IMG/VR virus record: IMGVR_UViG_3300023179_000443
Location: 1-26,374 of that record
Length of the DNA: 26,374 bases
Reading direction: 5' to 3' (one strand)
From: a virus
This document shows, piece after piece, positions 18,101 through 25,797 of this stretch. The notes under the pieces were generated by a model. It was not told where the DNA came from. It worked only from the letters and a program-made list of their open reading frames with translations, and made no database searches. The position numbers were made by a program, and so were the translations under genes. Positions within the stretch are counted from its first letter, which is position 1; the number at the start of each line of letters is the position of its first letter.

Positions 18101-18633
18101 AATCCTTTATCATCAGGAGTTCCAAACTGTCGTGTAATGGGTAAAGCAGCATTAATAACTTTAATAAATTGATCATACCAATTTGAATTACTAGCATCAT
18201 TCCAAGAAATAACTTGTCCAGAAAGATTTCGTCCTGCACTATCTAGAACATTTTGACTGGTTTGCACACTAACCATCTTTAAAAAACCACTTCCAGCTAT
18301 ATTACGTTTTGCATTATAACTTAATAATCGAGCTAGTCGTAAAACACTTTCCTTACGTTCAGAAAGTTCTAAAAAATTATCTCGACTATTAAGGTCAATC
18401 CTATACGCTAGACTTTGTCCTAAAAATGCTATTAAATCAATCAAAGCAAGATATTCACTACTTTCAATATAATCATTAAAGTCTTCGGGGTAATTTTCTC
18501 TAATATATTGAATCATAGTTCGACGTAGATTTTCAAAATCATAACTTTGAAAATCAGCATTGCGATATGTCTGATAAATTCTACGCCAATCTTCGGCTAC
18601 TAATAATCTATTTTGTCTATCAGTTATTGACAT
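15136..18633 (-). CDS. gp6: Baseplate wedge protein, gp6-like
   Basis: 1165 residues from an ATG at 18633, with GGAAG four bases upstream as ribosome-binding site. The N-terminus (AEDWRRIYQTYRNADFQSYD, then SSEYLALIDLIAFLGQSLAY and RDNFLELSERKESVLRLA) is characteristic of gp6 of aquatic T4-like phages. A baseplate-J-like region is seen around 340-450, including FSDGVFGNIPVGS and APSNFYTQNRMITAEDYN. The C-terminus carries INEFFTIDNWDFGDGFYFTE, matching the C-terminal wedge-ring region of gp6. T4 gp6 has about 660 residues, so this protein is much larger, with extra beta-rich sequence in the middle. In T4, gp6 dimers form the ring that joins six wedges around the hub. It follows gp25, its usual partner, across a 45-nt gap holding a candidate late promoter, and is followed at once by the giant gene. 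Confidence 0.88.
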   Translation of the reverse strand: MSITDRQNRLLVAEDWRRIYQTYRNADFQSYDFENLRRTMIQYIRENYPEDFNDYIESSEYLALIDLIAFLGQSLAYRIDLNSRDNFLELSERKESVLRLARLLSYNAKRNIAGSGFLKMVSVQTSQNVLDSAGRNLSGQVISWNDASNSNWYDQFIKVINAALPITRQFGTPDDKGFVYGVATEQYRFQSNNIDVPIYNFEKNIDGRMMPFEIVSSTFKNRNEIYEEAPIQGNRLAFLYRNDSKGNGSANTGFFMFFKQGQLNQGTFTFTQSVPNTTLDIDSNNINNDDIWLYKLNQVGQEFELWEKISALEGNNVIYNSLKKSIKNFYSATTRVNDRVTLQFSDGVFGNIPVGSFKVYYRVSEGISYTINPRDMRNISIELPYISNFGQPESLIISLSLTSSVNNSSPTESIESIKQRAPSNFYTQNRMITAEDYNLMPFNVNQQIMKVKSVNRSSSGISRYFDLVDPTGKYSKTNLFADDGILYREEYVDSFEFRFDTKTDIESIIYNQLYDYMSKTTLRDYYYNKFIKFDISELSIIWKNKSSETNLSTGYLSNINNTFIAVKVGSYTSTILKNVQIGSLLKFEAPEGYFFNTFENNKLVANNVYGTSKFLWTKVISIEGDGTNGGTGISSNGEGVIKLNDIIPENAKLISAIPPFKVTLNQNVITSIIDLIVNHKPFGLRYSQETTSWNIIYEVNLNLVDNFSLGQAGSNINEKTDSSWLISFITDSEYYTVSLRLLRYIFESDKQIRFYYDSSDKIYDTRTNTIEKDKIKILSINVDRTDTINVAGILVPTNRSFTIDHDWEIVEEFKGLDGYIDSKKIQISFADYDDDGIVDNPEIFELIVGNLTSTNKQDDYIILEKYTIEDQQEDYRYVSNLNGTDFGLVHVMDSEDLIDNLNIYPDGQYFYFIDLDLVKKLDKPRSALNVTFDYKCYLGRSDIKFQYIHNADYETRLDPGITNIVDVFVMTKQYDQNFREYLNGLRTIQPLPPSTDSLYNLLSPTLNPIKTISDEIIYHPARYKILFGKSANLDLQAIFKVVKNTEVVVSDNDIKSQVISSINEFFTIDNWDFGDGFYFTELSTYVMNKMATYITNFLIVPKKPNLSFGSLLEIKAEKDQIFISSATIDDVEIISAVTASRIKAEGSIVSTSKYLAQQSITSSGS

Positions 18634-18678: not shown

Positions 18679-19122
18679 TTAACCTATTAATAAACCATTT
18701 TCTTGATCAAACTTAAACTGTAATGACTCCTGTATATTATAAGGATAATAGGTCAACACACACTCTATTTGTATCCCACTTTCGTAAGTAGTTACTATAA
18801 CTTGCTCAGCTCGTATTCGTGGATCATAGTTAATAATTTGCTCTACATTTTTAATTACAGCTTCTTTCAATTGTTCTGTTAATGGTTCAAAAACTAAATC
18901 CCAAATTATAGTTCCAAACTCAGGCTGTTCAAGACGCTCACCCATACGTATATGAAAATGATTAATTAAATCTTGTTTAATTAACTCTAAATCATATAAA
19001 CTAAAAGTATTATATGAAGTATTAACTGTACTAAACCCTTTATATGTTTTAGTTCCAGGAATAAACTTAGATTGTTTATTTGCTAATATTACTTTATCAT
19101 AAAGTCTACTATTTGCTGTCAT
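18679..19122 (-). CDS. gp25: Baseplate wedge protein, gp25-like
   Basis: 147 residues from the ATG at 19122. An in-frame GTG at 19131 would add three residues, but the ATG gives an ATGA overlap with the gp5-like stop, the arrangement used by two other junctions in this operon, so it is preferred. The gp25/GPW-type domain is unmistakable: HIRMGERLEQPEFGTIIWDL at 57-76, VFEPL at 77-81 and a DPRI segment at 100-103. T4 gp25 has 132 residues. gp25 is the small conserved wedge protein that touches the sheath-initiating core and is shared with type VI secretion (TssE). The conserved EPR triad of the family reads DPR here. Its place before gp6 matches T4 relatives. Confidence 0.92.
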   Translation of the reverse strand: MTANSRLYDKVILANKQSKFIPGTKTYKGFSTVNTSYNTFSLYDLELIKQDLINHFHIRMGERLEQPEFGTIIWDLVFEPLTEQLKEAVIKNVEQIINYDPRIRAEQVIVTTYESGIQIECVLTYYPYNIQESLQFKFDQENGLLIG

Positions 19123-21203
19123 AGTCCCCACAATCCTTCATCATCTTGACTAGGTTCTACAGGAGGATTCCTAGTGAATGTATCTATAGTTGTAGTGTAT
19201 TTTCTCCAATGTGAAGCAACTTCTTTTTCATCTGTAGCATCGTATCTAAGAGGAAATCCTTCTCCTCTTGGACCAATATGTTCTCTTTGTATTGGTCCTG
19301 ATTTAACTAATTTAGGATCTAAATTCTCATGGTGCGGATATGGTTCAGGAGTAGGCATACGACGCATAATCACATCTTTAGTTGTGAGAGATTGCCAAGC
19401 ATCCTGACTTGGTATCTCTGGCATACTGATTACCTTAAGTTCGTGAATCAAAGTAGCCTTGGCTGTTATTCGAGCTTCTACCGATTCTACAGCTATAGCA
19501 GCAGTAGGAGCAGTTCCAGCAGTTGGTCCATTCATATGGATTTGAGGTGCAGTTTCGATAATATTTCCGCCTGCTAATGTTTCATTGGTCCCTGCTGATG
19601 TATTAAAAATATGTCCTCCAGAGTTAATATCGATATTTCCGGCAGATGTATGTTTCCAAGTTGAATCGGTATTAATATCTACACTACCATTAACTTTTGT
19701 CTTTGAGTAGCCAGTGATAATATGATCTAGATTGTGTCCATTTATATGCCTTACACGCATGTCTTGATTAATAACAATATCTATCCGATCAGGAGTGGGA
19801 CCATGAACATCTTTTATCGGTTTTGTTTTACCGCCATCATTAGCGCAAGGATTTCCTGGGTCATCCTCCCTAGGACGGTAAGGGGCAAAATCAGGATCTG
19901 CCGGGTTTACTCCTTGTGAAAAACTAAATCCTTTAGCTATTCTCCAATCTAATCTGCCATCTATATTATGAGTATAATCTGTCTTATAATATTTTTTAAC
20001 ATGATTGTGTACAGTTTGACGATATTCTTCGTCGATAGTTTCATCTTTCCTATTTTTAATGTGTATTTTTTGATCACGATCTACTATTAAAACATTATCT
20101 TTCATAACATGTGTATGCATTTCACCGTGAACTTTAATGTTAAAATTCTGAAAAACTTCTAAATTAAAATCTCGATCACATATAAAATTAAAATCTTTCT
20201 TTGTCCGAATACTAATACTATCATCTGCAAATACGTCGATTTTACCGTCGCTAGTCAATTCTATCCAAGCAGTTCCTCTGCTGTTACATATATAGATTAA
20301 ATCTTCGCTATTATGTAAAAGAATTTGATGTCCTGTTCGTGTTCTAAATCTTAATAATTCATTATGAGGTCTATCTCTTAAACCTGTTTCATTTTCTTCT
20401 ACATTTTTATAGTCTGGAGGACCATCAGATGGTAGTTTTTCTCTTTCCCATTTATCATCTCCATCATCCATAACTATACTACTACCACCTAGTCGACTTA
20501 CAAAAGCATTATTAATTTCGCTTTCGGCTTTACCTACTTTTCCAGTTTTTCCCCCTTTATCAATGGGGCCGGGTGTGCTGATTCCAAATACCATACTAGG
20601 TACTTCTCGTCTAGCACTACTAGTAGTAATACCTCTTGTATCATCTTTAAGTAAACCTTGTTTTTCTAAAAATCTAGCAAATGGATGCTCTGGCTTAAGT
20701 TTTTTAGTTCCATCTTCATTCCCTTCATGAATTTTTTTATTATATTCTGTTCCGGGAACACGTTCCTTTTCTCTATCTGTTTGTCTGCTTATATCTGAAA
20801 TATATTTTGTAGCAGCAAACCCAGGTGTACTAAAATTCATATTTTCGTTAATCATAGGGCATCCAATCCAATACCCTTTCTTTTCATCACCATTTAGAAA
20901 AATCACAACAACAAAGCTTCCTACATCAGGAGGAATCATCCAAAATCCATAACTTTTTTGAGTTTCATTATGTACATCTGGATCTTGACCTAGGTAATCA
21001 TAACTAGTAACTCCATAAAATGGACTAAGATATTTCACTTGTCTTATTTGGCTACCGCTTTTTTCGTTGTTTCCAACTTCTCGCATTAATTGCACTTCTA
21101 ATACACCATTATAAGTTTGATCAACTATACTAATAACTTTCGCTAAACAAGGAGTACCATCTTTAGTTGTTGTATTTGGTATTGATCTATTTTCTTCTGT
21201 CAT
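19119..21203 (-). CDS. gp5: Central spike/baseplate hub protein, gp5-like, without lysozyme domain
   Basis: 694 residues from an ATG at 21203 that overlaps the hub stop as ATGA; AGGAGAT lies 8 nt upstream. Residues about 15-120 look like the gp5/VgrG OB-fold (CLAKVISIVD, YNGVLEVQLM, GSFVVVIFLNGDEKKGYWIG). Residues about 130-280 are charged, low in complexity and probably a linker. A beta-helical spike region begins near 284 (LLRFRTRTGHQILLHNSED) and continues with repetitive short strands to about 360; another such stretch (GNIDINSGGHIFNTSAG) lies near 481-545. The C-terminal 100 residues are Pro- and His-rich (PTPEPYPHHENLDP). The T4 gp5 lysozyme domain between OB-fold and helix is not recognisable: no glutamate-aspartate-threonine catalytic arrangement was found. 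The protein probably forms the trimeric tail needle without a muralytic domain of its own. Confidence 0.82.
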   Translation of the reverse strand: MTEENRSIPNTTTKDGTPCLAKVISIVDQTYNGVLEVQLMREVGNNEKSGSQIRQVKYLSPFYGVTSYDYLGQDPDVHNETQKSYGFWMIPPDVGSFVVVIFLNGDEKKGYWIGCPMINENMNFSTPGFAATKYISDISRQTDREKERVPGTEYNKKIHEGNEDGTKKLKPEHPFARFLEKQGLLKDDTRGITTSSARREVPSMVFGISTPGPIDKGGKTGKVGKAESEINNAFVSRLGGSSIVMDDGDDKWEREKLPSDGPPDYKNVEENETGLRDRPHNELLRFRTRTGHQILLHNSEDLIYICNSRGTAWIELTSDGKIDVFADDSISIRTKKDFNFICDRDFNLEVFQNFNIKVHGEMHTHVMKDNVLIVDRDQKIHIKNRKDETIDEEYRQTVHNHVKKYYKTDYTHNIDGRLDWRIAKGFSFSQGVNPADPDFAPYRPREDDPGNPCANDGGKTKPIKDVHGPTPDRIDIVINQDMRVRHINGHNLDHIITGYSKTKVNGSVDINTDSTWKHTSAGNIDINSGGHIFNTSAGTNETLAGGNIIETAPQIHMNGPTAGTAPTAAIAVESVEARITAKATLIHELKVISMPEIPSQDAWQSLTTKDVIMRRMPTPEPYPHHENLDPKLVKSGPIQREHIGPRGEGFPLRYDATDEKEVASHWRKYTTTIDTFTRNPPVEPSQDDEGLWGL

Positions 21204-23527
21204 AAATTTGTATCTCCTAGTTCACTACCATATTGTTCTTCTTCATATGTTGGTTCCAAAGATCCTGTCCATTCAGGAGCGTTTGCTGGCAAACCTATAT
21301 CTGCATAATCTGCTGCTTCAAGTTCTGTAAGTTGAGTTGGTCCTAAATAGTCATCATCTGGCTCTGGCTGAGCTGCAACTGCTAACTTTCCTTGAGGTAC
21401 ACTACGATTATCCTGATCTGGTAATCTAATTAGTGTTAGATCTTGTGTGAATTTTCCCTTATTAAATATATTATTAACACGTAAAACCCTAAAAATTCCG
21501 CTAAACTGAAACTGGCTTCCGGGATCACCGAAGTAATAAAGTCCATCCCATTCAGGCATTTTATCATTTGGATTTTGATCTATTGGGGTCCTAAAATACA
21601 CCCCAATATAAACTTCTCCGTGTTCATAATCCATCTCCTTATCACCATTAATTCCCTGCTTATTAGTATGTGGAGCTCGATAATTTCCTGTACCGCTACT
21701 AGTTATATAAAAAGGATCTCCTAGAATTGATAATTCTAAATTAATCATATCATGACCAGTAGTTGCTAAATCATGAAATTGTCTAGCAGCTAATGTAGCA
21801 GGATCATCTGATTGGAAACCTCCTCCTTTATTACTAGTTTTATTAGCATTTTTGTTGAATCTAATAGCAGAAGGTTGTTTATGGGTATCTGGAGATAATC
21901 CTGGAGGATTTGGTTCTTTTTGTTTTCCTATTTGCTCAGAGTTAGATCCTCCTTGAGCTGGGCCAACTCCTTCGTATTGTTCAGTTAATTTTCCTGCATC
22001 AGAAGTTAAAGCCTTATAAAATCCTGTATTAAACTGTAACTGAACATCCAGAACATCTAAATTTTGTCCTGTATAGATATAATAATATTCTTTAACAATT
22101 TCTTGGAACTTGTTTTCTAATCCTGGATTCTTCGTATTAGGAGGTGTAAATTTTTGAGCATCAACATAATATTCCTCTACTCTGAACACAATCTTTTTAG
22201 GACTATAAGCTGTTTTTAAATCTTCTGGACCTTTATAATAAACTTTAGTATCGATACGCCACCAAATTATTTGGCCTTGGGGAGTCCAATTTTTTAAGGC
22301 ATATTTTGGGTAATCACTAGTTAGTATAACTTGATTTATAACATCGGTAACAAGCTGCCCTTGATCAAAAGTAAAAATACCGTTATTAGGATTTACTTTC
22401 ATCTTTCCTCGCTTATATACTCCATTCTCATAGACAAAATTATCATCGGCAAATCCTGTTTGCCCTTTATTATAATTATTAAATCCTAAATTAGCTAATC
22501 CAATCTTGTTAACACTGCCATCACTTCTTGATTGATCTGGAAATACTATATCGATCTCATCATAGTATTCGGTAGTCTTTTGATCTTTTCTTTCTTTCAT
22601 ATATTGATTAAAGACATTTACTAAGCTTCTTTCGCTTTTACGTAAAAGCTCTTCAACAGTTTTCGGTGCTTTATCATCAACAATAAGTTGTACGTCATGT
22701 TTTATCTGATTATGAGTGTCACTAAAGCCACTTTCATTATAAGGATAGGCAGCTACTTCATACAAACAACCTTTTTTACTTACAGCCATTTCTATTTGTC
22801 TTAGTTTCAAAGGAATGTATTTTCTACTTACAGTTGATTCAATGTTTAAATTGTCAGGATCATGATGCCCTGTAAACTTTATTGTCAACAACATTACCGA
22901 ATCAGCGTAATTTTTGTAACCTTGTTTTATAGCCGCAGTTTGAAGTGCCTGAAAAAATAAACCCATACTATATGGCTCTACGACCTGGAAATTTATTTCT
23001 AAAGCATTACTATTCCCTGTCTTCTCGTTCAATCCGGTAATACAAAGAATTTTTAGATTTTCAATATGATAGTCGTGCCTTCCTGAAGCAGTCTCTACTA
23101 GTTCAGGTTCCTTATAAGCTCCTGCACTAGCCAAAATAATTTGACCCCTATCCCCTCCTATATAACCAGCACTGTTGTAAGTTCCTTTTGATATTACACT
23201 TAGAGTAAAATGATAATTATAAATACTGTAATCAAAAAGTTTATTAGGTTGTGGTCTATCATAGATTCCATCTAATTGTTTCAAAGGACTTCCGGAGGAA
23301 GATCTTCCTCCGGAAGATACACCCGGTACACCCGGTACACCCGGTACTAAATTATTAGGTATTCCAAGATTGGTAACACCTTGTCTACTTACTTGTCCTA
23401 ACGTGTTTGCACCAGAAGTTATTGCATTTAGACCATTAGTCACTTGGCTAACATTAGACAAAACATTTTTTACTGCTCCAGAAATTGTTGTTGTAGCAGC
23501 ATCAACAAAATTATTAAGTAAATTCAT
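21200..23527 (-). CDS. Baseplate hub protein (possible gp27 counterpart)
   Basis: 775 residues from an ATG at 23527 that overlaps the gp53 stop (ATGA). The first 60 residues are a Ser/Thr/Val/Asn-rich, probably helical segment. A flexible linker at 61-80 consists of three Val-Pro-Gly units and a Ser/Gly stretch; its DNA is a tandem repeat plus a perfect palindrome. The following region (FDYSIYNYHFTLSVISKGTY, then PYSMGLFFQALQTAA) resembles hub or tube-domain proteins found between gp53 and gp5 in T4-like aquatic phages. The C-terminal half includes DPFYITSSGTGNYRAP and WDGLYYFGDPGSQFQFSGIF, ending in an acidic tail rich in Glu/Asp/Pro. I call it a hub protein from position and general appearance; equivalence with T4 gp27 (391 aa) is inference. 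No enzymatic motif was identified. Confidence 0.72.
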   Translation of the reverse strand: MNLLNNFVDAATTTISGAVKNVLSNVSQVTNGLNAITSGANTLGQVSRQGVTNLGIPNNLVPGVPGVPGVSSGGRSSSGSPLKQLDGIYDRPQPNKLFDYSIYNYHFTLSVISKGTYNSAGYIGGDRGQIILASAGAYKEPELVETASGRHDYHIENLKILCITGLNEKTGNSNALEINFQVVEPYSMGLFFQALQTAAIKQGYKNYADSVMLLTIKFTGHHDPDNLNIESTVSRKYIPLKLRQIEMAVSKKGCLYEVAAYPYNESGFSDTHNQIKHDVQLIVDDKAPKTVEELLRKSERSLVNVFNQYMKERKDQKTTEYYDEIDIVFPDQSRSDGSVNKIGLANLGFNNYNKGQTGFADDNFVYENGVYKRGKMKVNPNNGIFTFDQGQLVTDVINQVILTSDYPKYALKNWTPQGQIIWWRIDTKVYYKGPEDLKTAYSPKKIVFRVEEYYVDAQKFTPPNTKNPGLENKFQEIVKEYYYIYTGQNLDVLDVQLQFNTGFYKALTSDAGKLTEQYEGVGPAQGGSNSEQIGKQKEPNPPGLSPDTHKQPSAIRFNKNANKTSNKGGGFQSDDPATLAARQFHDLATTGHDMINLELSILGDPFYITSSGTGNYRAPHTNKQGINGDKEMDYEHGEVYIGVYFRTPIDQNPNDKMPEWDGLYYFGDPGSQFQFSGIFRVLRVNNIFNKGKFTQDLTLIRLPDQDNRSVPQGKLAVAAQPEPDDDYLGPTQLTELEAADYADIGLPANAPEWTGSLEPTYEEEQYGSELGDTNL
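23289..23316. repeat. Perfect 28-bp palindrome inside the hub gene
   Basis: The 14-base half CTTCCGGAGGAAGA is followed immediately by its exact reverse complement. It encodes the Ser/Gly part of the linker (SSGGRSSSG) and is far more GC-rich than its surroundings. Transcripts could fold into a strong hairpin, but no T-run follows on either strand, so it is not a standard terminator. Confidence 0.95.
23321..23347. repeat. Three exact 9-bp tandem repeats (ACCCGGTAC) in the hub gene
   Basis: Three head-to-tail copies of ACCCGGTAC, read on the minus strand as GTACCGGGT, encode Val-Pro-Gly three times at residues 61-69. They lie four bases from the 28-bp palindrome. Copy identity at the DNA level suggests recent expansion by slippage. 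Confidence 0.95.
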
Positions 23528-23823
23528 ATTCCTATACTATTCTTAATGTTACTAATTTTTGGAAGATATATTCGAACTCCAGGAATAAAATCGTATATAG
23601 GATCTGATAATACGTCCATGTTTCTTTGAATGAAAACCCACCATAATTTATGATCTCTGTACAAATCATAAGCCAGTAAGTCCGGTCTATGTGTGTATTG
23701 AACTTCAATTGTATATAAAATATCATCCGATTCTGCTATAATAGGACGAATCTTAAAATAACCTAGATAATTCCCTATAATTTTAGTATTAAACCAAGGA
23801 CTATTTTCTTTATATTCTGCCAT
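23524..23823 (-). CDS. gp53: Baseplate wedge protein, gp53-like
   Basis: 99 residues from an ATG at 23823 whose A is also the last base of the gp48-like stop (TAATG). The core at 43-88 is typical of gp53: YTHRPDLLAYDLY, LWWVFIQRN, DPIYDFIPGVRIYLP. The last part has the look of a LysM-type fold. T4 gp53 has 196 residues, so this is a short form with only the core domain. In T4, gp53 clamps neighbouring wedges together around the hub during baseplate assembly. The downstream hub start overlaps its stop, so translation of gp48, gp53 and hub is probably coupled. A different minus-strand reading frame inside the gene is a shadow. Confidence 0.88.
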   Translation of the reverse strand: MAEYKENSPWFNTKIIGNYLGYFKIRPIIAESDDILYTIEVQYTHRPDLLAYDLYRDHKLWWVFIQRNMDVLSDPIYDFIPGVRIYLPKISNIKNSIGI

Positions 23824-24878
23824 TATAGATATCCCGGTTTACTATCTACATAATCACCATTAACAAAACTGTCTAAATTAAATGTCCTAACTTTTTTCCG
23901 ACTCCATACAGGCTGACAAACCACACTTATTGTACTTTTCACAGGAACATGTGTTTTTCCACCTTTACTAAACGGAGCACTTCCTCCTCCAGTAGCACCT
24001 GCTAACATATTACCTGCATTATTCACAGCACTCAAAATTGCTCCAGCTGCTCCAAGAGCATTGGCTGCTTTACCTGCACCCAGAAATCCTGCTACTCCAC
24101 CCAAGACTCCAAATGTATTGCTAGCATTTTCTATAGTTTGATTGCTTCCACCAGTACTCATTCCAAAACCACTAGTTGGTTGCTGACTACCCATAGTAGT
24201 AGCAATGTAAGCAACGTCTTGTGGCAATTCAACAGTGAAACTAGTTATGATAACAGGAATATTTTTAAAAACAAAATCCCCATAACCGTTTAGATAAACC
24301 ATAGGTGGCGGGTTTCCTGAATAAGCACTGTCTCCTGTAAACATTTTTGTAACACTTCTAAGATAATGAACTACTGCTATCCAATACTGAGCTTGAATAT
24401 GATCTTCAACATTAAAGGGTCCGGAAATAGTAATAGCATTTGCAGCACTGTTTACATAACTAAAATAGCTATAATTTTGATGAGTAACTGGAGTGTTTTC
24501 ATAAGTAGCAGCACCTTGCATTTGTATAGTAGGTGTGTATGGAAATACTAGTCCACCAGCAGATATTAAAGGACTAAGTATAGGACTACCTTTGAATGGA
24601 GCAGCATTAGGTATACTTAAACGTACTCTCCAATCATCTCCTGCTTCATTACCACCAAAACTAGCATTACTACTTGCTCCAGTAAACCCTGGCATTGCTC
24701 CGTTAGGTAAACTAGCACTTCGTAATGCTGATACTAAAGCAGCTGGATTTGATAAATTATTAAGTGCCCCGGCGACTCGACTTACAGTTCCTAATGCTCC
24801 TTGAACTCCAGATCCTAGAGTATTGGCTACAGACCCTACAGTATTTAAAACACTACCTACTGAATCGAACAACGCCAT
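23823..24878 (-). CDS. gp48: Baseplate tail-tube cap/initiator, gp48-like
   Basis: 351 residues from the ATG at 24878, which has a strong AAGGAGAC ribosome-binding site. A TTG at 24893 would extend the frame but would include that site within the coding sequence, so it is rejected. T4 gp48 has 364 residues. The first 60 residues are a Gly/Ala/Val/Ser-rich helical segment. The conserved body, about 82-225, includes DWRVRLSIPNAAPF, VFPYTPTIQMQGAATYE, HYLRSVTKMFTG and FVFKNIPVIITSFTVELPQD. This resembles tube-initiator folds related to the tail tube. A Gly/Ala-rich hydrophobic stretch lies at 256-300, followed by a final beta segment (VPVKSTISVVCQPVWSRKKV). It is the first gene of the late operon, and order gp48-gp53-hub-gp5-gp25-gp6 supports the call. 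gp54 is the main alternative. Confidence 0.72.
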   Translation of the reverse strand: MALFDSVGSVLNTVGSVANTLGSGVQGALGTVSRVAGALNNLSNPAALVSALRSASLPNGAMPGFTGASSNASFGGNEAGDDWRVRLSIPNAAPFKGSPILSPLISAGGLVFPYTPTIQMQGAATYENTPVTHQNYSYFSYVNSAANAITISGPFNVEDHIQAQYWIAVVHYLRSVTKMFTGDSAYSGNPPPMVYLNGYGDFVFKNIPVIITSFTVELPQDVAYIATTMGSQQPTSGFGMSTGGSNQTIENASNTFGVLGGVAGFLGAGKAANALGAAGAILSAVNNAGNMLAGATGGGSAPFSKGGKTHVPVKSTISVVCQPVWSRKKVRTFNLDSFVNGDYVDSKPGYL

Positions 24879-24889
24879 ATTTGTCTCCT

Positions 24890-24905
24890 TCAACTATTTA
24901 GTTGA
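24890..24905. repeat. Inverted repeat in the divergent promoter region (possible operator)
   Basis: Arms TCAACTA and TAGTTGA are exact reverse complements separated by TT. The repeat covers the candidate late box of the baseplate operon and most of the -35 element of the sigma-factor promoter, a good position for a repressor or for competition between polymerases. A 7-bp repeat in AT-rich DNA may be chance. Confidence 0.5.
24895..24902 (-). promoter_or_regulatory. Candidate T4-type late promoter box for the gp48-gp25 operon
   Basis: The minus strand reads ACTAAATA, one base off the AATAAATA seen at the other two candidate boxes. It lies 16 nt before the gp48 ATG, and the predicted start lies next to the AAGGAGAC ribosome-binding site. 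Its last base on the plus strand is the first base of the -35 element of the divergent early promoter. Confidence 0.45.
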
Positions 24906-24930
24906 CAAAATTAAGTGCGTAGTTTATAAT
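24902..24930 (+). promoter_or_regulatory. Consensus sigma70 early promoter for the gp55-like sigma factor
   Basis: TTGACA at 24902-24907, a 17-nt spacer and TATAAT at 24925-24930 match the bacterial housekeeping consensus at every position. The expected start near 24937 leaves about 11 nt before the ATG, just including AAAGGA as ribosome-binding site. Confidence 0.85.
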
Positions 24931-24947
24931 AACTATAAAGGAATACT

Positions 24948-25772
24948 ATGACAAAGATTAATTATCTTAATAATAAAGACTTATTAGATGAAATACACAA
25001 AAGTAAAACTACATTTTGTTCATTTACCCGTGCTGAATACAGTCAATACGATATAATTTTACCTCATATTGATCGAATCAATATAAGAACCGTAGCAGAA
25101 GCCAAACGTAATCGTGCTAAAAGATTAGGGATACAAGATTTTGAACGTAGAAAAGCAGCAGGAGAAAAGATCAAGCAGGCAGATTGCGAAATCGATTATA
25201 AAAAAATCGGCAAGCAGGACCTAATTTTTAGGATCATGACCTATGAGCATATTCCTATAAACACTACTCGTAAGAAAAATCCAAAAAGCGAAGCTGACGG
25301 AAGAGATAGAGTAAACTTTCCGCCATTCCAACATTGGAAATTTAACGAAGAAGATATCCTAACTTGTGTAGGCAAAAGTCATTGGAAGGGCAGCATGGAA
25401 CGAGGCAAGTTCAATAAAGAACATGGGCAGATCACTAATAACTTGGCTCGCATGTATATCAAACTATGCGAACGTTATGCTACTCGTGGTAATGTTCGTG
25501 GTTATACCTATAACGATGAAATGAAAGGTCAGGCTATTTTACAACTAACACAAATCGGTCTACAGTTTGATGAATCAAAATCCAATAATCCATTTGCCTA
25601 TTTTACTGCGGCAGTGACCAATAGCTTTGTAAGAATTATCAATATAGAAAAACGTAATCAAATTATTCGTGATGATTTATTAGAAATCAATGGCATGAAC
25701 CCAAGCTACAGTAGGACCAGCGAAGGTGAACATGCTGCTGCTTTGAAAAGATACGAATATAATGAGGATTGA
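24948..25772 (+). CDS. gp55: Late-transcription sigma factor, gp55-like, with large internal insertion
   Basis: 274 residues from an ATG at 24948 with AAGGA upstream. The N-terminus NYLNNKDLLDEIHKSK lines up with the start of T4 gp55 as I recall it (NYVNNKELLQAIIDWK). Residues about 160-240 carry the sigma region-2-like core: ITNNLARMYIKLCERYATR, GYTYNDEMKGQAILQL, LQFDESKSNNPFAYFTAAV and IEKRNQIIRDDL. This core binds polymerase and reads the late -10 box. T4 gp55 has 185 residues; here about 130 extra, Lys/Arg-rich residues separate the two conserved parts (including VAEAKRNRAKRLG and NFPPFQHWKF). The C-terminus ends soon after the core (LKRYEYNED), without a hydrophobic motif like the sliding-clamp-binding tail of T4 gp55. 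It is transcribed away from the late genes it should activate. Confidence 0.85.
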   Translation: MTKINYLNNKDLLDEIHKSKTTFCSFTRAEYSQYDIILPHIDRINIRTVAEAKRNRAKRLGIQDFERRKAAGEKIKQADCEIDYKKIGKQDLIFRIMTYEHIPINTTRKKNPKSEADGRDRVNFPPFQHWKFNEEDILTCVGKSHWKGSMERGKFNKEHGQITNNLARMYIKLCERYATRGNVRGYTYNDEMKGQAILQLTQIGLQFDESKSNNPFAYFTAAVTNSFVRIINIEKRNQIIRDDLLEINGMNPSYSRTSEGEHAAALKRYEYNED

Positions 25773-25797
25773 CTCTGTAATTTATAGATGTTATAAT
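25769..25797 (+). promoter_or_regulatory. Sigma70 early promoter for the gp47-like gene, overlapping the sigma-gene stop
   Basis: TTGACT at 25769-25774, a 17-nt spacer and TATAAT at 25792-25797. The TGA stop of the sigma gene lies inside the -35 element. The expected start near 25804 leaves about 11 nt before the ATG at 25815, with CGGAGG as ribosome-binding site. AGTCAA at 25799-25804 is the exact reverse complement of the -35 hexamer. Confidence 0.82.

Follow-up and report, generated by a model that had tools for sequence, protein, structure and literature searches.

The divergent gap between a phage late sigma gene and a baseplate operon carries a sigma70-type promoter and a T4-type late promoter that run antiparallel and overlap completely, over a shared 36 bp. 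The DNA is a 26.4-kb virus record (called the window when its full length is meant). The best explanation of this arrangement, and in our judgement a reasonably probable one, is that two polymerases exclude each other from the gap and that the sigma gene is hence autorepressed while the late promoter fires strongly. A first-pass annotation had already proposed that the late sigma gene is read from a sigma70-type promoter and the baseplate operon from a late promoter overlapping it, and this assignment by promoter type holds; which sigma factor would serve which promoter is something that we infer from the sequence. The same annotation had the two sets of elements sharing one base, 24902, which is indeed common to the late box ACTAAATA and the -35 TTGACA, but the overlap really spans about 36 bp. 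The features of the locus, those between and overlapping the genes being read directly from the sequence, are as follows.

24948-25772, plus strand: gp55-type late sigma factor, 274 aa (phrog_12791, E=1.4e-76; phrog_234, E=1.2e-24)
23823-24878, minus strand: first late-operon gene, virion structural protein (phrog_12050, E=2.2e-47)
18679-23823, minus strand: promoter-near remainder of the operon (gp53 wedge, structural protein, gp5-type hub/lysozyme, gp25)
24902-24907, plus strand: -35 element TTGACA
24925-24930, plus strand: -10 element TATAAT, spaced 17 bp from the -35; start predicted near 24937
24895-24902, minus strand: late box ACTAAATA, core TAAATA at 24900-24895, predicted start near 24889
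24909-24926, minus strand: extended late element TAAACTACGCACTTAATT, TACGCA core at 24921-24916, inside the sigma70 spacer
24885-24889, minus strand: Shine-Dalgarno AGGAG, 6 nt away from the ATG at 24878 and at the 5' end predicted for the late mRNA
24890-24905, no strand: 7-bp inverted repeat TCAACTA-TT-TAGTTGA
25769-25797, plus strand: separate gp47/SbcD promoter, TTGACT-17-TATAAT

The product of 24948-25772 is, on the basis of profile searches and a structure model, a T4 gp55-type late sigma: the profile search against the PDB found T4 gp55 (7d7c_F, E=8e-8), the AlphaFold2 model (mean pLDDT 86) had the same entry as its best Foldseek match (rmsd 1.6), and the sigma-domain-2 region of gp55 is thus matched in both sequence and fold. 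T4 gp55 corresponds to the C-terminal half of the protein, and the N-terminal ~155 aa (24948-25412) have no matched counterpart in it. This N-terminal part (YLNNKDLLDEIHKSK...) is conserved and has no clear PDB match; a known DNA-binding fold was considered for it and discarded, as Foldseek matched the sigma-2 half only. The nearest named relatives are PA5oct-like Pseudomonas phages, with a sigma identity of 44-45%. On the other side of the gap, the minus-strand operon starts at 24878 and consists of baseplate genes, the first of which has a homologue in the same orientation in 334 of 350 relative loci; gp6, at 18633, has a late box of its own. The sigma gene is followed on the plus strand by gp47/SbcD (ORF from 25815), whose promoter overlaps the sigma stop codon.

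TTGACA and TATAAT at 17 bp spacing (24902-24930), as a sigma70-type early promoter should have them, occur where the first-pass annotation put them and once in the window, against 0.02 copies expected from shuffling. The late box was likewise found at its proposed place, 24902 to 24895 on the minus strand; as a lone 8-mer ACTAAATA is not rare (1 found, 4.4 expected per window), and its support therefore comes from position and conservation. It lies 16 bp from the ATG of the baseplate operon, about one turn before the predicted start and with late structural genes downstream, as a TATAAATA-like box of the T4 type does, and its TAAATA core is near-invariant among relatives. In the window and the contigs of six relatives, ATAAATA is the top-enriched 7-mer upstream of genes (~33-fold), CTAAATA and GTAAATA are enriched ~9-fold, and the reverse complements are much rarer there; the late motifs proposed for Aeh1 and T4 are CTAAATA and TATAAATA, respectively (PMC1524935). 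As boxes of the form [ACG]TAAATA are thus enriched ahead of genes throughout the clade, ACTAAATA is credible as a T4-type late promoter of the baseplate operon. Could the minus-strand TAAATA instead be an AT-rich UP-like element of the sigma70 promoter? It does sit directly upstream of the -35, the usual UP position, yet we hold this to be very improbable: (i) this box shows strong enrichment ahead of genes across the clade, (ii) in the sister clade it stays ~21 bp from the minus-strand ATG although the sigma70 promoter sits elsewhere, and (iii) other TTGAC/TATAAT promoters in the contigs have no TATTTA before their -35. A place for TATTTA in a general early-promoter consensus was rejected on the third of these grounds and because the combined motif is confined to the gap in the clade's contigs.

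Two further patterns concern late boxes away from the gap. Boxes with an ATG only 4-5 nt downstream are over-represented in the relative contigs G003, G005, G007, G008, G011 and G012 (L087-L125), with 33 cases where permuted motifs gave 3 to 12, the usual box-to-ATG distance being 15-24 nt; this suggests leaderless late mRNAs. Moreover, two opposed late boxes, TATATAAATA...TATATTTATC, precede a 273-274-aa gene in five relatives (G003 at 66412, G005 at 35228, G007 at 87933, G011 at 74907 and G012 at 94924).

Alignment of the gap in related phages, proposed with the original annotation, shows that about 140 distinct relatives keep the overlap. Four scans, all of viral contigs belonging to the window's clade, yielded 142 distinct gaps (gp55 ~70-92% identical), a count of distinct sequences and not of independent events, as the IMG/VR relatives are fragments and partly redundant. 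TATTTA, 0 or 1 nt, TTG, 20 bases and a TATAAT-like -10 follow one another in 132 of the 142. All 132 have TTG and 129 have TTGAC; TATAAT is exact in 111 and one change away in the remainder. Across relatives the flanks of the 36-bp block are near-random and the block itself is not. Of 14 relative contigs, 13 have the string TATTTA[GT]TTGAC exactly once, in every case at the gap between the sigma gene and the baseplate operon, and the fourteenth has a one-base variant at the same gap. The interlocking of late box and sigma70 promoter is far beyond chance. The other ten gaps, which form a nested clade (SH-aLRT 97), have a TG-TATTAT promoter and no TTGAC -35, and their late box still occupies the would-be -35 position.

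The inverted repeat that the first-pass annotation saw across both elements is present, but a role for it was not borne out: all five outer pairs occur in only 1 of the 132 relatives, the usual number being two of five. We rejected it as an operator because it is not conserved, and judge it a coincidence of the window's sequence.

In a tree made by a quick method and with several open forks, the relatives with the overlap form one well-supported group (SH-aLRT 100). In the sister clade a distance, mostly of 36 bp, separates the late box from the sigma70 promoter, and no such overlap was seen in PA5oct, 121Q or a Vibrio phage. Agrobacterium phage Atu_ph07 (40% identical sigma) has TATTTAGTTGACA in the same gap (L004, 3894-4000); as there is no -10 at 17 bp, it was not counted as the same arrangement, and may be an ancestral remnant or a convergence. 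Since PA5oct, the sister clade, 121Q and the Vibrio phage manage without the overlap, a T4-type programme does not need it. The gap is also ~40 bp shorter where promoters overlap (median 79 bp against 119 bp in the sister clade; medians only, as the ranges included mis-assigned gaps), so that compaction could have produced the overlap. A divergent gap that simply shrank, each promoter being conserved for its own need and the overlap bringing no regulatory benefit, is an explanation that we consider unlikely but worth stating: the shortening resembles the usual 36-bp separation in the sister clade, the distant relatives fare without overlap, and two needed promoters summed would account for the conservation with no feedback at all. 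It fits less well with the retention of the overlap when the TG-TATTAT subclade rebuilt its early promoter, or with the absence of separated promoters from every sampled member of the overlap clade; besides, however the overlap arose, exclusion would be its consequence.

The conservation of the sigma70 spacer gives a second view of the late promoter. On the minus strand, TAAACTACGCA (24926-24916), missed by the first-pass annotation, sits 15 bp upstream of TAAATA, and the extended element TAAACTACGCACTTAATT, which overlaps TATAAT by 2 bp, has one match in the window and none in 100 shuffles. The spacer is conserved at 1.23 bits per position in the overlap clade against 0.28 in the sister clade, and we attribute this to the late-strand element TAAACTACGCA that it carries; a need of sigma70 itself was rejected, because the spacer of the promoter that serves this gene in the sister clade is not conserved. 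TAAACTACGCA, exact or with 1-2 changes, recurs at the same spacing before the gp6 late box in most of ~30 relatives, and the gp6 promoters that bear it are without sigma70 motifs. In a ranking of 1.4 million positions by a model built from gp6 promoters only, the window's gap came second. Set side by side, gap and gp6 have the late element as their common columns, while the conserved columns peculiar to the gap are the sigma70 hexamers: conservation of the sigma70-specific positions (the -35 and the outer -10 bases) is seen at the gap and not at gp6, where part of the TAA conservation may be due to the gp25 stop codon.

The upstream element has a limited distribution. It is found at a few further sites besides the gap and gp6, the window's own gp6 promoter has no TACGCA, and gp6 promoters of the TG-TATTAT subclade are only loosely similar at its position. 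We rejected it as a trait of all late promoters, as most late boxes in the clade are without it, and a pattern search of T4-like phages beyond the clade gave no signal clearly above its control. T4 late promoters, as described in PMC2988020, lack a conserved -35 element; judged from its sequence, the late promoter at the gap appears to depart from this rule of the box alone by its conserved element TAAACTACGCA 15 bp upstream. What reads TACGCA may be asked in two ways. It might be bound by a third regulator, encoded by the phage, which would activate the late promoter (and gp6) and repress the sigma gene from within the spacer. We treat this as possible rather than probable: the distance of 15 bp to TAAATA is fixed and the element is confined to two or a few promoters, most other late boxes do without it and the T4 description has nothing alike, but no candidate protein emerged, the sequence of the element is not a palindrome, and the fixed spacing fits recognition by a polymerase/sigma complex equally well. 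Such a regulator is compatible with polymerase exclusion and could add to it. Alternatively, and no less tentatively, the enlarged gp55 may itself read a two-part promoter, TACGCA-15-TAAATA, and have its own early promoter kept atop one such promoter for autorepression with no separate repressor.

A mechanism based on mutual exclusion may be suggested from these elements. Early in infection, host sigma70 polymerase would read TTGACA/TATAAT rightward to produce the gp55-type late sigma; later, gp55-polymerase would read TAAATA, aided by the upstream TAAACTACGCA, leftward into the baseplate operon. Because the early -35 abuts the late box and the late upstream element fills the early spacer, only one polymerase should fit at a time; with predicted starts ~48 bp apart (24889 and 24937) and the same 36 bp needed by both, joint occupancy seems implausible. 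The element sets, their full overlap, its conservation and its lineage come from the sequence, and the exclusion, the feedback and their timing are what we infer from them. Occupancy by sigma70 polymerase would hold back the baseplate operon in the early phase, a reverse exclusion that the first-pass annotation did not mention, and strong late firing would, as autogenous negative feedback, stop further sigma from being made. In T4, the sliding (replication) clamp strongly activates late promoters (PMC2988020), and at overlapping divergent promoters of E. coli polymerases compete when one direction is strongly activated (PMC12825309), which together argue that late firing should suppress the sigma gene. 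Exclusion is further favoured by the TG-TATTAT subclade, in which a rebuilt early promoter continues to overlap with the late box, and by a spacer that is conserved only where the promoters overlap. As gp47 has promoter-like sequence of its own (25769-25797), it need not depend on the sigma-gene promoter, and the shut-off could be confined to the sigma gene. T4-like phages have other means of turning off sigma70 transcription. Given these, feedback through the overlap might matter little.

If mutual exclusion is true, the change from early to late transcription has a hard-wired exclusion between making and using the late sigma, with no repressor protein, in a common group of large T4-like phages. 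Some gp55-type late promoters would also have a conserved upstream element, against the box-alone rule of T4. The ~140 natural variants make both ideas directly testable.

Our literature search found no description of a gp55-gene promoter overlapping a late promoter, and the known systems each share part of the arrangement. The gap resembles T4 and Aeh1 late promoters in its TATA-like box 6-13 bp before the predicted start (PMC2988020, PMC1524935), and the window resembles these phages in having the box upstream of structural genes and a gp55 homologue in the phage. It differs from T4 in the TACGCA found 15 bp upstream of the box at the gap and at gp6 promoters of relatives, where T4 has none at -35, and in the extra N-terminal part, ~155 aa, of its gp55. 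The bidirectional promoters of E. coli (Warman et al., PMC12825309) likewise have two divergent promoters on shared DNA, and there one polymerase excludes the other; these are pseudo-symmetrical sites that polymerase uses in two orientations, whereas the strands of the gap differ (TTGACA/TATAAT against TACGCA/TAAATA), two different sigma factors are proposed, and only at the gap would the product of one promoter serve the other. The pLS20 promoters Pr and Pc (PMC4207663) also overlap and diverge, serve a regulator gene and the operon that it targets, and act as a switch; pLS20 uses a DNA-binding repressor and looping, while at the gap the regulator itself would read the target as a polymerase subunit. 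Finally, the A2c-A2b/A3 region of phi29 also makes its early-to-late switch at closely spaced early and late promoters and does so with the proteins p4 and p6 (PMC3100819), where an exchange of sigma factors is proposed for the gap.
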